The position numbers and the translations under genes were made by a program. 64,000 nt of DNA from Lanius collurio (Eukaryota > Chordata > Aves > Passeriformes > Laniidae), in NCBI GenBank assembly GCA_020086605.1, contig JACBWW010000015.1, positions 12,574,390 to 12,638,389 of the forward strand, in the 5' to 3' direction. The stretch's first letter is position 1. Every line of letters begins with the position of its first letter. Shown piece after piece: positions 35,976-38,266 of the stretch. Below the pieces are notes generated by a model that was not told the DNA's origin, made no database searches, and saw only the letters and a program-made list of their open reading frames with translations.

Positions 35976-36218
35976 TGTGGAGGTGGGTCCCTGTCCCTGT
36001 CCCCAGGTCACGTGTGCCCCATTCCTGTTCCTGATTGGGTGGTTTGGCTGCCTGGGAGCTGGAGGGGAGAAGGTCAGAGAGGAGTCTGCTTGGAAACTCC
36101 GGCCATGCGGCTGGAGAAATAAAATCATCCCTGAACATCTACAAAAATACGGCTTCATCTGTCCTTCCAACCCCATCACCTCATATATATTGTTGTAAGG
36201 GTTTCCCGCACTGCAACA
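35976..36218 (+). repeat. 5' LTR
   Basis: A 243-bp direct repeat of 38026-38266. It begins TGTGG and ends CAACA, giving the canonical TG...CA ends. A polyadenylation signal AATAAA is at 36118-36123. A TATATAT string is at 36184-36190, but it lies downstream of the AATAAA, so it is not an obvious TATA box. It includes an E-box-like CACGTG at about 36009-36014. Confidence 0.92.
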
Positions 36219-36220
36219 AA

Positions 36221-36238
36221 TGGTGGAGAATGCGGGCA
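36221..36238 (+). other. Primer-binding-site-like sequence
   Basis: Two bases after the 5' LTR the sequence reads TGGTGGAGAATGCGGGCA. A TGG start at this distance is what a retroviral primer-binding site needs to pair with a tRNA CCA end. The closest tRNA I can think of is alanine, with an indel; I cannot confirm the primer identity. Confidence 0.55.
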
Positions 36239-36300
36239 AACGATCCCTGGAGAAGATAATTCGTGAGTAACTCTGGATATTTCCTCTTACTTTTGTTTTG

Positions 36301-36573
36301 ATGAACGATTCATGGAAGGACTCATGGCTGTCCGAACCACAAAGAGACATTTATCTTAAGCTAAAAAAGGTTCTGGAACAGCAATATGTAGACTTTAGCT
36401 TAATTCAAGCTCAGAAAGAGCTAAGACACTTTTTGGTATGGCTGTTTAAAAACTTCTTCTATGTTTCTTGGGATTTGATTCCTACCAAGGACTTTTGGAA
36501 GAATGTTTGGACACAGTTAATTTCTGAACCAAAAACATGCCGATGCAAGACTATTTCCGTGAATATTACCTGA
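36301..36573 (+). pseudogene. Gag matrix-like N-terminal fragment (endogenous retroviral)
   Basis: The first ATG after the leader opens a 90-codon frame. Residues about 10-75 have the helical, K/L/W-rich pattern of class II retroviral matrix domains: an LSEPQRDIYLKLKK segment, then a LRHFLVWLFKNFF segment, then DFWKNVW. In beta-type Gag the matrix binds the membrane and targets assembly. The frame stops at 36573, well short of a full Gag, and no capsid major homology region or CCHC zinc knuckle follows. The downstream open frame lies in the -1 register and overlaps it from about 36528, so the two may once have been one polyprotein. Similarity is judged by eye and is weak at the sequence level. 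Confidence 0.5.
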
Positions 36574-37508
36574 TTTCAGAGACTGTTAAGCAATATTGGC
36601 TTTGTCCTGCTGCTGTATCAGCAGCGAACACGTGGTTGAGCAGCCCGCATGTTGCAGGGGGCTCCTCCACCATCCTGGAGACCGCGCGGCCCCGGCCGAG
36701 ACCACCCAGTGAATTGCGGGCGGCGGCGAGAAAGCTCCCGGGCGTGGGAGAGCCAGCAGTGAGGCCAGGCACGGCGGGAGACGGGGCGGCGGCGAGAGAA
36801 GAGGTGGCGGGAGTGGAGCCAGGAGCAACGCGGCGGCGCGGGCCCGGCGGTGTTCGCCCTGAGGCAGCGGAGAGGGCGGTGGCGGATGAGGCGCGTCCCG
36901 GCAATGGCCGCCCCGCGCCGTGTGGCGAGCGACGGTTCGAGCCCCACACCGAAAAAGGTGGTGGCGATTGTGGCAGTCGCTATGGCGACCGTAGTGAGAC
37001 ATGCCAAGCAGAGCCAGAGGGGTGTGGGGGCGCGAAGGGAGCCGTGCTAGCCCACGGCCACACAGCCGATGACAGCAGCGGAGGTGCAGGCAGAACAAAG
37101 CCGCGCACACGCGAATGCCTCACAGGGCGAGGCCGGGCAGCCGCGCAAATGCCCGGACAGCGTGGAACAGTCACGCGAAACTCGAGAGGGGGAGCGAGCA
37201 TGGCACCAAATGCGGCTCCGCCCCACACACGATCCCGAGGAGCCGAGAACCCGAGACAGGAACCCACTGGTGGCCCCGGCCCCGGTGGTCCCAGCTGCAG
37301 CAGCTCCGACGTGAGAAGAAGTGAAAGCAAGAAGAAAAGAACTCAAAAAAATGAAAAGGTTATCGCAGCTAGGGTTTTTGGAACTGTAAAGTGGTATAAT
37401 GTAAAGAAAAATTACGGTTTCTTGTTGAAAGATGATACTGGAGAAAATATTTTTGTCCATAAATCTGCTATTGTGAAAATAACCCCAAAAGTGATGTTCC
37501 AAGCTTAG
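36528..37508 (+). CDS. Long open frame: GC-rich linker plus cold-shock domain N-terminal half
   Basis: This frame is open for over 320 codons to a stop at 37506-37508. The first 270 or so residues are rich in R, G, A, P and E, from CpG-dense DNA, and resemble no known domain. The part just before the cold-shock domain (GGPGPGGPSCSSS, then a KKKRTQKNEK stretch) recalls the glycine/proline-rich N-terminus and basic lead-in of Y-box proteins. From 37359 the YBX-type cold-shock domain begins: V-I-A, GTVKWYNV, then NYGFLLKDDTGE (RNP1 region) and IFVHKSAI (RNP2 region). The aromatic and histidine residues that stack on nucleic acid are kept. The domain is cut at about codon 'AIVK' by a 1-nt frameshift. 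Whether translation starts at a local ATG near 36537, or reaches here by frameshift from the matrix frame, is unknown. Confidence 0.6.
   Translation, partial: TKNMPMQDYFREYYLISETVKQYWLCPAAVSAANTWLSSPHVAGGSSTILETARPRPRPPSELRAAARKLPGVGEPAVRPGTAGDGAAAREEVAGVEPGATRRRGPGGVRPEAAERAVADEARPGNGRPAPCGERRFEPHTEKGGGDCGSRYGDRSETCQAEPEGCGGAKGAVLAHGHTADDSSGGAGRTKPRTRECLTGRGRAAAQMPGQRGTVTRNSRGGASMAPNAAPPHTRSRGAENPRQEPTGGPGPGGPSCSSSDVRRSESKKKRTQKNEKVIAARVFGTVKWYNVKKNYGFLLKDDTGENIFVHKSAIVKITPKVMFQA
36620..37320. other. CpG-dense GC-rich core inside the LTR element
   Basis: About 700 bp are markedly GC-rich and full of CpG, including GCGGCGGCGAG-type runs, within an otherwise AT-rich desert. Overlapping long open frames on both strands are a consequence of the GC content. 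It could derive from the GC-rich 5' part of the captured mRNA, or be a viral leader/linker. It has not lost its CpGs to deamination as expected for an old, heavily methylated repeat. Confidence 0.8.
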
Positions 37509-37615
37509 AAGAAGGAGAAAGAGTAGAATTCAAAATTGTTCAAGGAAGGAAGGGCCCACAGGCTGCGTGTGTTACCGGCCCTGGGGGTGCCCCTGTGAAA
37601 GGTAGTAGATATGCT
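37359..37615 (+). pseudogene. YBX-type cold-shock domain, frameshifted, intronless
   Basis: The domain extends from 37359 to about 37478 in one register and from 37478 to about 37615 in the -1 register. In the second part NNPK, an EEGERVEF segment, VTGPGGAPVKGS and RYA match the second half of the Y-box protein cold-shock domain. In vertebrate YBX proteins this beta-barrel binds RNA and single-stranded DNA. The junction lies in a short A run (37476-37479), most simply explained by loss of one A. In host YBX genes the domain is spread over several exons; here it is continuous, so capture went through spliced RNA. Identity to YBX1/2/3 is clear at family level but diverged, and I cannot say which paralogue was the donor. 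Confidence 0.85.
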
Positions 37616-37810
37616 GGACAATATCCCCATAACCCCTGTTCTTTCCCCCATCACACTTTCCCCTTTTATCCCATGTCCCTCTATCCCCCATATATGCCCA
37701 GCCCAAATTTCCCTTTCTGGCTTCCCTCACAAAACCAGTCTTTTTCATTTGCCATTAATCCCTTTGCATTGCCGATGAGGGGGATGAAAAGGAGGGAGGG
37801 AAGAAATTAA
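37616..37810 (+). pseudogene. F/P/Y-rich C-terminal tail after the cold-shock domain
   Basis: In the same register as the second half of the cold-shock domain, about 60 more codons run to a TAA at 37808-37810. The tail is dominated by Pro, Phe, Tyr, Ser and Asn (FPHHTFPFYPMSLYPPYMPS) and ends in a short basic stretch. This differs from the alternating basic/acidic islands expected after the cold-shock domain in YBX1, so it is either a diverged tail or non-host sequence. Its function is unknown. Confidence 0.5.
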
Positions 37811-38011
37811 CCATCATTTCTAAGATTCCAACAGGTACAAAAAGGAAAATCCCTTCCTCAGTTTCCATCTGAAGTGTGCTCATGTCCTATCTCCCTTCTG
37901 GTACTCCAAAGGAAATCTGTTTAGACATTTGAAGATTCAAGACAGTGGCTTCCTTTCCTTTGAAATTGTTTTGTTGTTTATCCAACTATTTCCCCTGTTA
38001 TTTTATTTAAT

Positions 38012-38025
38012 AAGAAAGGGTGAAT
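38012..38025 (+). other. Polypurine tract
   Basis: AAGAAAGGGTGAAT lies directly before the 3' LTR start at 38026. A purine run here is the expected plus-strand primer site of an LTR retroelement. Confidence 0.7.
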
Positions 38026-38266
38026 TGTGGAGGTAGGTCCCTGTCCCTGTCCCCAGGTCACGTGTGCCCCATTCCTGTTCCCGACTGGGTGGTTTTGCTG
38101 CCTGGGAGCTGGGGGGGCGAAGGTCAGAGGAGTCTGCTTGGAAACTCTGGCCATGCCATTGGAGAAATAAAATCATCCCTGAACATCTACAAAAATACTG
38201 CTTCATCTGTCCTTCCAACTCCATCGCCTCATATATATTGTTGTAAGGGTTTCCCGTACCGCAACA
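38026..38266 (+). repeat. 3' LTR
   Basis: A 241-bp repeat of the 5' LTR, with about 15 substitutions and a 2-nt deletion relative to it. AATAAA is at 38166-38171. It ends GCAACA and is followed by the CATGAA duplication at 38267-38272. Confidence 0.92.

Follow-up and report, generated by a model that had tools for sequence, protein, structure and literature searches.

The 64,000-nucleotide stretch of Lanius collurio DNA that we analysed (the window) contains a 2.3-kb long terminal repeat (LTR) element at positions 35976-38266, whose 1.8-kb interior carries a cold-shock domain (CSD) resembling that of Y-box proteins. Alignment of the LTR pair delimits a 5′ LTR of 243 nt (35976-36218, TGTG...AACA) and a 3′ LTR of 241 nt (38026-38266; like all other parts of the element, given on the + strand), and the insertion is flanked by the 6-bp target-site duplication CATGAA (35970-35975 and 38267-38272). 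At the 241 sites that align, the LTR pair shows 15 substitutions, of which 11 are transitions and four transversions, and there is also a 2-bp indel; the identity is 93.8% and the Kimura two-parameter (K2P) distance 0.066. An AATAAA polyadenylation signal is located at 36118-36123 in the 5′ LTR (LTR position 143). An AA spacer separates this LTR from a primer-binding-like site, TGGTGGAGAATGCGGGCA (36221-36238), which matches at 18/18 positions the 3′ end of a candidate tRNA-Ala(AGC); the best match in a first set of candidate tRNAs was 14/18, also to a tRNA-Ala. A polypurine-tract-like run, AAGAAAGGG (38012-38020), lies 5 nt (TGAAT) before the 3′ LTR. The paired LTRs and target duplication proposed in an initial annotation of this DNA were confirmed; its primer-binding and polypurine sites we describe as resemblances.

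The interior of the element can be divided into four parts. An N-terminal helical, matrix-like piece with four predicted helices (36301-36531) is followed by a GC-rich linker that encodes Gly, Ala, Arg and Pro in the frame of the CSD (36532-37349), by the CSD itself, and by a Pro/Phe/Tyr-rich C-terminal tail (37622-37810, with the stop codon at 37808-37810). The window copy has three interior open reading frames (ORFs): an N-terminal one from 36301, one at 36528-37508 that ends in the N half of the CSD, and one at 37463-37810 that holds the C half of the CSD and the tail. A one-base slip near 37482 puts the two CSD halves (37350-37481, with RNP1 and RNP2, and 37484-37621) in different frames, and a further frame change separates the N-terminal piece from the linker. 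The copy in the window is a frame-broken, decayed family member. Among the ORFs scanned, the CSD gave the only Pfam matches above the cut-off and no pol or env was found, so that the reverse transcriptase and integrase that an autonomous LTR element would have of its own are missing from what we could identify. The initial annotation held that a continuous CSD stands in place of pol and env; a Y-box CSD is present and neither gene was found, but the domain is not continuous in this copy.

The element belongs to a family. A search of the genome (1,096,898,245 bases) gave 42 rows, and because 40 of the 2555 first-look candidates were scored, all copy counts are lower bounds. At least 37 rows, including the window, are full length (spanning query positions 1-2289 or 1-2291), and the at least 36 further full-length copies are 90-93% identical to the query over 2,291 nt. 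All 36 of these were retrieved for analysis and five partial rows were left out. Counts of LTRs and target duplications refer to these 36 further copies; one of them (L138) was dropped from later analyses as an assembly duplicate of L137, and counts of ORFs and measures of selection refer to 36 copies made up of 35 others and the window. Two pairs, L146/L151 and L143/L144, share a 6-bp target duplication within each pair; they were kept, and the key test was repeated without L151 and L144.

An LTR pair was located in 36/36 copies. The 5′ LTR starts with TGTG in 36/36, and the 3′ LTR ends with AACA in 35 and with AAGA in one. The 6-bp target duplications are exact in 30/36 copies, match at 5 of 6 positions in three and at four or fewer in three (33/36 reach at least 5/6), and 33 distinct 5′ target duplications are represented. 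These are independent insertions of one multi-copy LTR family, and several insertions sharing the LTR, N-terminal piece, GC core and CSD, for which the initial annotation had suggested looking, were found within a single genome. Target duplications of 6 bp are linked to class II (ERVK-like) endogenous retroviruses (ERVs), and the family has duplications of this length. LTR divergence within copies ranges from a K2P distance of 0 to 0.095 (mean 0.036). In 3/36 copies the LTR pair carries no substitution, one of these pairs having a one-base length difference, which points to recent activity unless gene conversion has occurred. Neutral rates for birds of 1.5-3.3e-9 would put the age of the window copy at about 10-22 million years. 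Pairwise interior distances among 35 copies are 0.023-0.091 (mean 0.067).

The primer-binding 18-mer of the window recurs in 7/35 other copies, and the mean match of these 35 to the candidate tRNA-Ala(AGC) is 16.1/18. Two chief types of site were seen among them, ending in GCTGGAA (18/35) and GCGGGCA (7/35); distances within and between the two classes are similar (0.067, 0.064 and 0.068), as if primer tRNA isodecoders had repeatedly been switched. We also observed that L137 and L138 form an inverted duplicate with the same target duplication on one small contig (C900), and that L146 and L151 have the same target duplication at a near-equal coordinate (near 175.9 kb) on two contigs (C18 and C19). 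Both arrangements suggest assembly or segmental duplication.

A single uninterrupted ORF runs through the N-terminal piece, the GC-rich linker, the CSD and the tail in 11/36 analysed copies, spanning roughly 36300-37810 (499-507 codons from stop to stop; 498-506 amino acids from the first ATG). Because one frame runs through all four parts in these copies, the element encodes a fusion in that order. The CSD-frame ORF ends near 37810 in 26/36 copies, and the CSD is in frame and without a stop in 28/36. Translation from the ATG that aligns to 36301 yields 13-34 amino acids in 34/36 copies, 90 in the window and 317 in one; since the long ORF of the 11 copies begins at an ATG near 36304-36306, the start region is aligned with a slip between the window and the others. 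The linker was tested over the 774 nt at 36576-37349, where the frame of the CSD contains no stop; 2000 dinucleotide shuffles reached this in 0.6% of cases in that frame and in 1.6% in any forward frame. The GC core, which the initial annotation set apart as a unit of its own, is therefore better regarded as part of the coding sequence, being open in the CSD frame and included in one ORF in the 11 copies.

Profile and structure searches identify the domain as a CSD of the Y-box type. Pfam PF00313 matches the N half in the window at E 1.5e-9 (ORF 36528-37508) and the C half at 8.5e-7 (ORF 37463-37810), and the top solved-structure matches of the halves are YBX1/YBX2 (YBX1 at 7e-14 for the N half, YBX2/YBX1 at about 1e-12 for the C half). 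The complete CSD of one open copy matches PF00313 at 6.7e-22 and the zebrafish YB-1 structure at 5.4e-32. A Lin28 or bacterial-type CSD was considered as the source and rejected, as the YBX matches score far higher. Searches of a protein database returned two bacterial Csp proteins for the 326-amino-acid ORF (44% over 11%), no match for the region, and for the C half a single protein, P0003, which is described below. Structure prediction for the C half gave an unusable model, with a predicted local distance difference test score (pLDDT) of 37. The basic/acidic repeats found C-terminally in Y-box proteins were not seen in the tail, which is rich in Pro, Phe and Tyr and does not match the YBX1 tail (P 0.85).

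In the window, 37/88 CSD residues differ from YBX1 (58% identity). These changes are conservative beyond neutral simulation (P 0.0065 for the N half and 0.023 for the C half); the absence of stops from each half was uninformative in such simulation (P 0.43-0.44). From the sequence comparison, the divergence from YBX1 exceeds what the age of the window insertion, with LTRs 6.5% different, can explain. Of 11 RNA-contact residues, seven are identical (W65, N67, Y72, F74, F85, H87 and K118), three are changed conservatively (R69K, T89S and D105E) and one non-conservatively (N70K). Nine of the 11 contacts are named in PMC7226217; F74 and F85 are the two others. According to a review, eukaryotic CSDs are frequently split by an exon boundary (PMC7825780); the CSD of the element is intronless, and an RNA-mediated origin therefore fits. 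An intronless host-like coding sequence within LTRs, present in several copies, is also what characterizes an ERV with a captured gene, and this is the arrangement found here. Because of its likeness to YBX proteins, we infer that the CSD was captured from a host Y-box mRNA.

Comparison of the copies places the CSD codons under purifying selection. The ratio of replacement to silent polymorphism (pN/pS) is 0.296 for the CSD (codon bootstrap 0.17-0.52) and 0.35 and 0.25 for its halves, against 0.76-1.4 in off-frame controls. The N-terminal piece gives 0.284 (bootstrap 0.14-0.65; 0.56 off frame, one frame run), and the linker 0.73 (bootstrap 0.60-0.91; 0.71-0.74 off frame). CSD variants found in at least two copies comprise 16 replacements, one stop and 19 silent changes, and singletons comprise 55 replacements, two stops and 19 silent changes. 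Replacements make up a smaller share of the shared variants than of the singletons (Fisher P 0.0054 if stops are treated as replacements, 0.0050 if they are omitted and 0.0047 if they enter for singletons only; the values are approximate because the copies are related), and the result stands without L151 and L144 (P 0.0019 and 0.0023 for the first two treatments). The same split gave no contrast off frame in the CSD (P 1.0 and 0.46), in the linker (P 0.13) or in the tail (P 0.60). Constraint together with replacement-poor shared variants suggests that the CSD probably worked during replication; it was probably needed while the family replicated, with copies decaying freely after insertion.

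The N-terminal piece is less easily classified. Its four helices come from a single-sequence model with a pLDDT of 66.6, and the label matrix-like reflects its position and this low-confidence prediction; the initial annotation called it a matrix, a name for which we found no Pfam, PDB sequence or fold match, the betaretroviral matrix (Gag p10) expected of a class II ERV included. The case for constraint on the piece comes from pN/pS. Its nucleotide divergence is the lowest of nine segments (p 0.029 versus 0.045-0.092), below even that of the CSD; a packaging signal within the piece might be the reason.

The LTRs carry motifs of possible relevance to a Y-box protein. A Y-box core, CTGATTGG, is present in the 5′ LTR of the window (36031-36038, + strand), and the 3′ LTR reads CCGACTGG. 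The same core is found in at least one LTR of 34/35 other copies, at the same offset in 28 of the 31 5′ LTRs that have it, and is therefore probably ancestral to the family. NF-Y binding to Y-box-like boxes is common in LTRs, so we regard feedback through this core as a lead only. CATC, an RNA motif of YB-1, occurs four times in each window LTR (P 0.026 and 0.021; 0.012 after AATAAA; all uncorrected) and two to five times in the 5′ LTRs of the other copies. A search of the available literature did not recover the report, mentioned in the initial annotation, of Y-box proteins binding the Rous sarcoma virus LTR; the LTR of the element does carry a Y-box core.

One distant relative was found, the 123-amino-acid P0003, from an ENA contig of 505 bases that shows no LTR evidence. 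It has 46/85 aligned residues in common with the element. Seven derived CSD residues absent from YBX1-3 are common to both (0.38 expected; 0/20000 trials reached seven), and the two also share an FPxxTFPFYP stretch in the tail (P 0.0012, shuffling). The flank of P0003 just after the CSD matches YBX1 in register (P 0.0015), compared with 0.011 for YBX2 and 0.33 for YBX3; the corresponding flank of the element fits none of YBX1-3 (P 0.45-0.76). As P0003 shares derived CSD residues and the tail and keeps a YBX1-like flank, the CSD-tail unit is probably older than the element family. When the other reading frames of the window were examined for a better continuation of the P0003 tail, a weak match emerged (E 0.003, one comparison). 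Signals of the donor are mixed: the N half agrees best with YBX1, and the C-terminal end of the CSD equals YBX2 at 3/3 diagnostic sites. Scans of viral contigs confirmed no relative, and a 15-base pattern scan of genome contigs gave bacterial chance matches, none of them element-like by blastn among the 117 matches listed.

We propose, with a probability of about 0.6, that the window element is a decayed copy of a non-autonomous LTR family whose fusion protein of about 500 codons acts as a minimal gag, with the CSD binding the element's own RNA. A cellular Y-box mRNA would have supplied the CSD to an LTR element, where the domain, standing in for a zinc-knuckle nucleocapsid, would bind element RNA and might condense it, protect it or recruit it into particles. 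The CSD lies behind a matrix-like piece and a basic linker, in the place of a nucleocapsid, and the Gag protein of mouse mammary tumour virus (MMTV) works with YB-1; both argue that the CSD may pack or recruit element RNA. A part in RNA binding or packaging within a gag-like protein would accordingly be the likeliest role for the domain. Given that no pol was found, reverse transcription and integration should depend on a helper ERV, which would supply reverse transcriptase, integrase and probably capsid. More speculatively, the Y-box of the LTR could place transcription of the element under the control of its own protein, or of NF-Y and the Y-box proteins of the host. A fuller version of this proposal, which we advance tentatively, would have a gag-only element with its zinc-knuckle nucleocapsid replaced by the captured CSD, a recently active parasite of ERVs that packages its RNA and whose LTR Y-box closes a self-regulatory loop.

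Several observations weigh against this proposal. It is built on sequence, and no helper element was identified. The full fusion ORF is missing in 25/36 copies. Among the 36 copies, frame-specific constraint was not seen in the linker, and the pN/pS of the tail (0.53, without a control run) has a bootstrap interval that reaches 1 (0.26-1.14). Shared and singleton variants of the N-terminal piece do not differ in their replacement-to-silent ratio (P 1.0), and the piece had no match in Pfam, none below E 0.65 in PDB and best E values of 1.6 and 2.9 in a fold search. CATC is enriched only mildly in the LTR and not in the interior, and CACC is enriched in neither. Selection on the CSD could also serve another role.

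Other accounts of the element were considered. The initial annotation named, as what would undo its reading, a host YBX retrocopy that had landed later in this one LTR element. We found nothing in favour of such nesting, and can practically dismiss it: the CSD stretch is present in 36/36 analysed copies and is spanned by all of the at least 37 full-length rows, the sole A run of at least 7 nt inside the element (7 nt at 37345) is upstream of the CSD and no poly(A) tract follows the domain, the two CSD flanks share no word longer than 9 nt, as is also the case in shuffles, and the CSD is far more diverged from YBX1 than one LTR is from the other. Alternatively, a Y-box retro-sequence may have been trapped once in a non-autonomous element and copied as a passenger without a function of its own. 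Unrelated interiors have precedents among non-autonomous LTR elements, and both the many copies without the long ORF and the behaviour of the linker would suit a passenger, but this would leave unexplained the contrast between the pN/pS of the CSD (0.30) and its off-frame values, the deficit of replacements among shared variants in the CSD only and in frame only, the ORF of about 500 codons kept in 11/36 copies and the conservative divergence from YBX1. We therefore regard it as very improbable.

The fusion might instead be cellular throughout, if a divergent Y-box-like host gene had been captured whole, with the N-terminal piece, linker, CSD and tail all coming from it and no fusion to gag. 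The lack of a viral match for the N-terminal piece agrees with such a capture, as does P0003, with its CSD and tail and no sign of LTRs. The N-terminal piece begins about 60 nt past the primer-binding site, at the position expected for gag, and its p-distance is the lowest of the nine segments, which speak for gag and do not settle the matter; on balance we consider capture of a whole gene unlikely. It is distinctly unlikely, in our view, that the target of the CSD protein is the host cell, through translation, stress granules or silencing of foreign RNA, and not element RNA: constraint over many copies fits a role in replication, even though Y-box proteins control mRNA translation at large (PMC7226217) and captured genes of other retroviruses act on the cell (Src and cyclin homologues, with the same considered for KIT ligand; PMC4299795).

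Other features of the window were also recorded. An ORF at 29120-29464 (- strand) has no Pfam match; its end resembles the 3′-terminal part of CR1 LINE reverse transcriptases, and a CR1-type tail repeat could not clearly be made out in the window, where one weak match was seen. The element is followed closely, at 39303-40485 (+ strand), by a series of open frames that overlap one another (212, 107 and 110 codons), within a region where the GC skew is negative (39-41 kb). The segment is possibly a further decayed retroelement; Pfam gave no match for its 212- and 110-codon ORFs. The 59% GC stretch at 59001-60000 is perhaps the CpG-island promoter of a host gene, and a possible exon ORF without a Pfam match is located at 61820-62371.

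In the titles and abstract beginnings covered by our literature search, no CSD-bearing LTR element was described, and a Repbase or Dfam entry may exist. The term 'cold shock' is absent from the main texts of four papers on bird ERVs and LTRs (PMC6523648, PMC5006616, PMC8310711 and PMC11009239) and from that of PMC4299795. Capture of host mRNA by ERVs is already known; here the captured part would be an RNA-binding domain. In an entire family of small elements, such a domain is part of the single long ORF, and the family offers a testable case of a nucleocapsid-like function evolving from a cellular mRNA-packaging protein. It also suggests a route by which the RNA of an element lacking pol could enter helper particles, and provides dozens of natural variants with which the RNA-packaging idea can be tested.

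Among known systems, acute transforming retroviruses carry gag-onc fusions and are defective and helper-dependent, and the element would resemble them in these respects, with a host sequence fused to an N-terminal gag. Those viruses carry signalling genes and come from tumour isolates, whereas the element forms a family in the germ line, and its CSD is under constraint. Host-gene capture by ERVs is described as relatively uncommon in PMC4299795, and the cases named there concern cell signalling, division or adhesion. Two crocodilian ERVs, CrocERV29 (KIT ligand) and CrocERV31 (nectin3), are like the element in that an ERV captured a host mRNA, occurs in several copies per genome and is reported to show purifying selection on the captured ORF; as described there, the captured signalling or adhesion gene has taken the place of env or is inserted between pol and env (Chong et al. 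2014, PMC4299795). In the window element, by contrast, no pol or env was found and an RNA-binding domain is in frame with the N-terminal piece. YBX1, YBX2 and YBX3 resemble the element in the CSD, which is 58% identical to that of YBX1 over 88 residues and keeps RNP1, RNP2 and the aromatic stack, but the element differs from them in its FPFYP-rich tail, which is not YBX1-like, its long GC-rich N-terminal linker, its lack of introns and its position between LTRs. A further parallel is MMTV, in which a Y-box protein acts with Gag and viral RNA: according to two papers that cite Bann 2014, YB-1 and viral RNA are found together with MMTV Gag, and knock-down of YB-1 leads to fewer particles (PMC4486188, PMC6797609). 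MMTV uses host YB-1 as a separate protein, whereas the element has a Y-box domain inside its own ORF.

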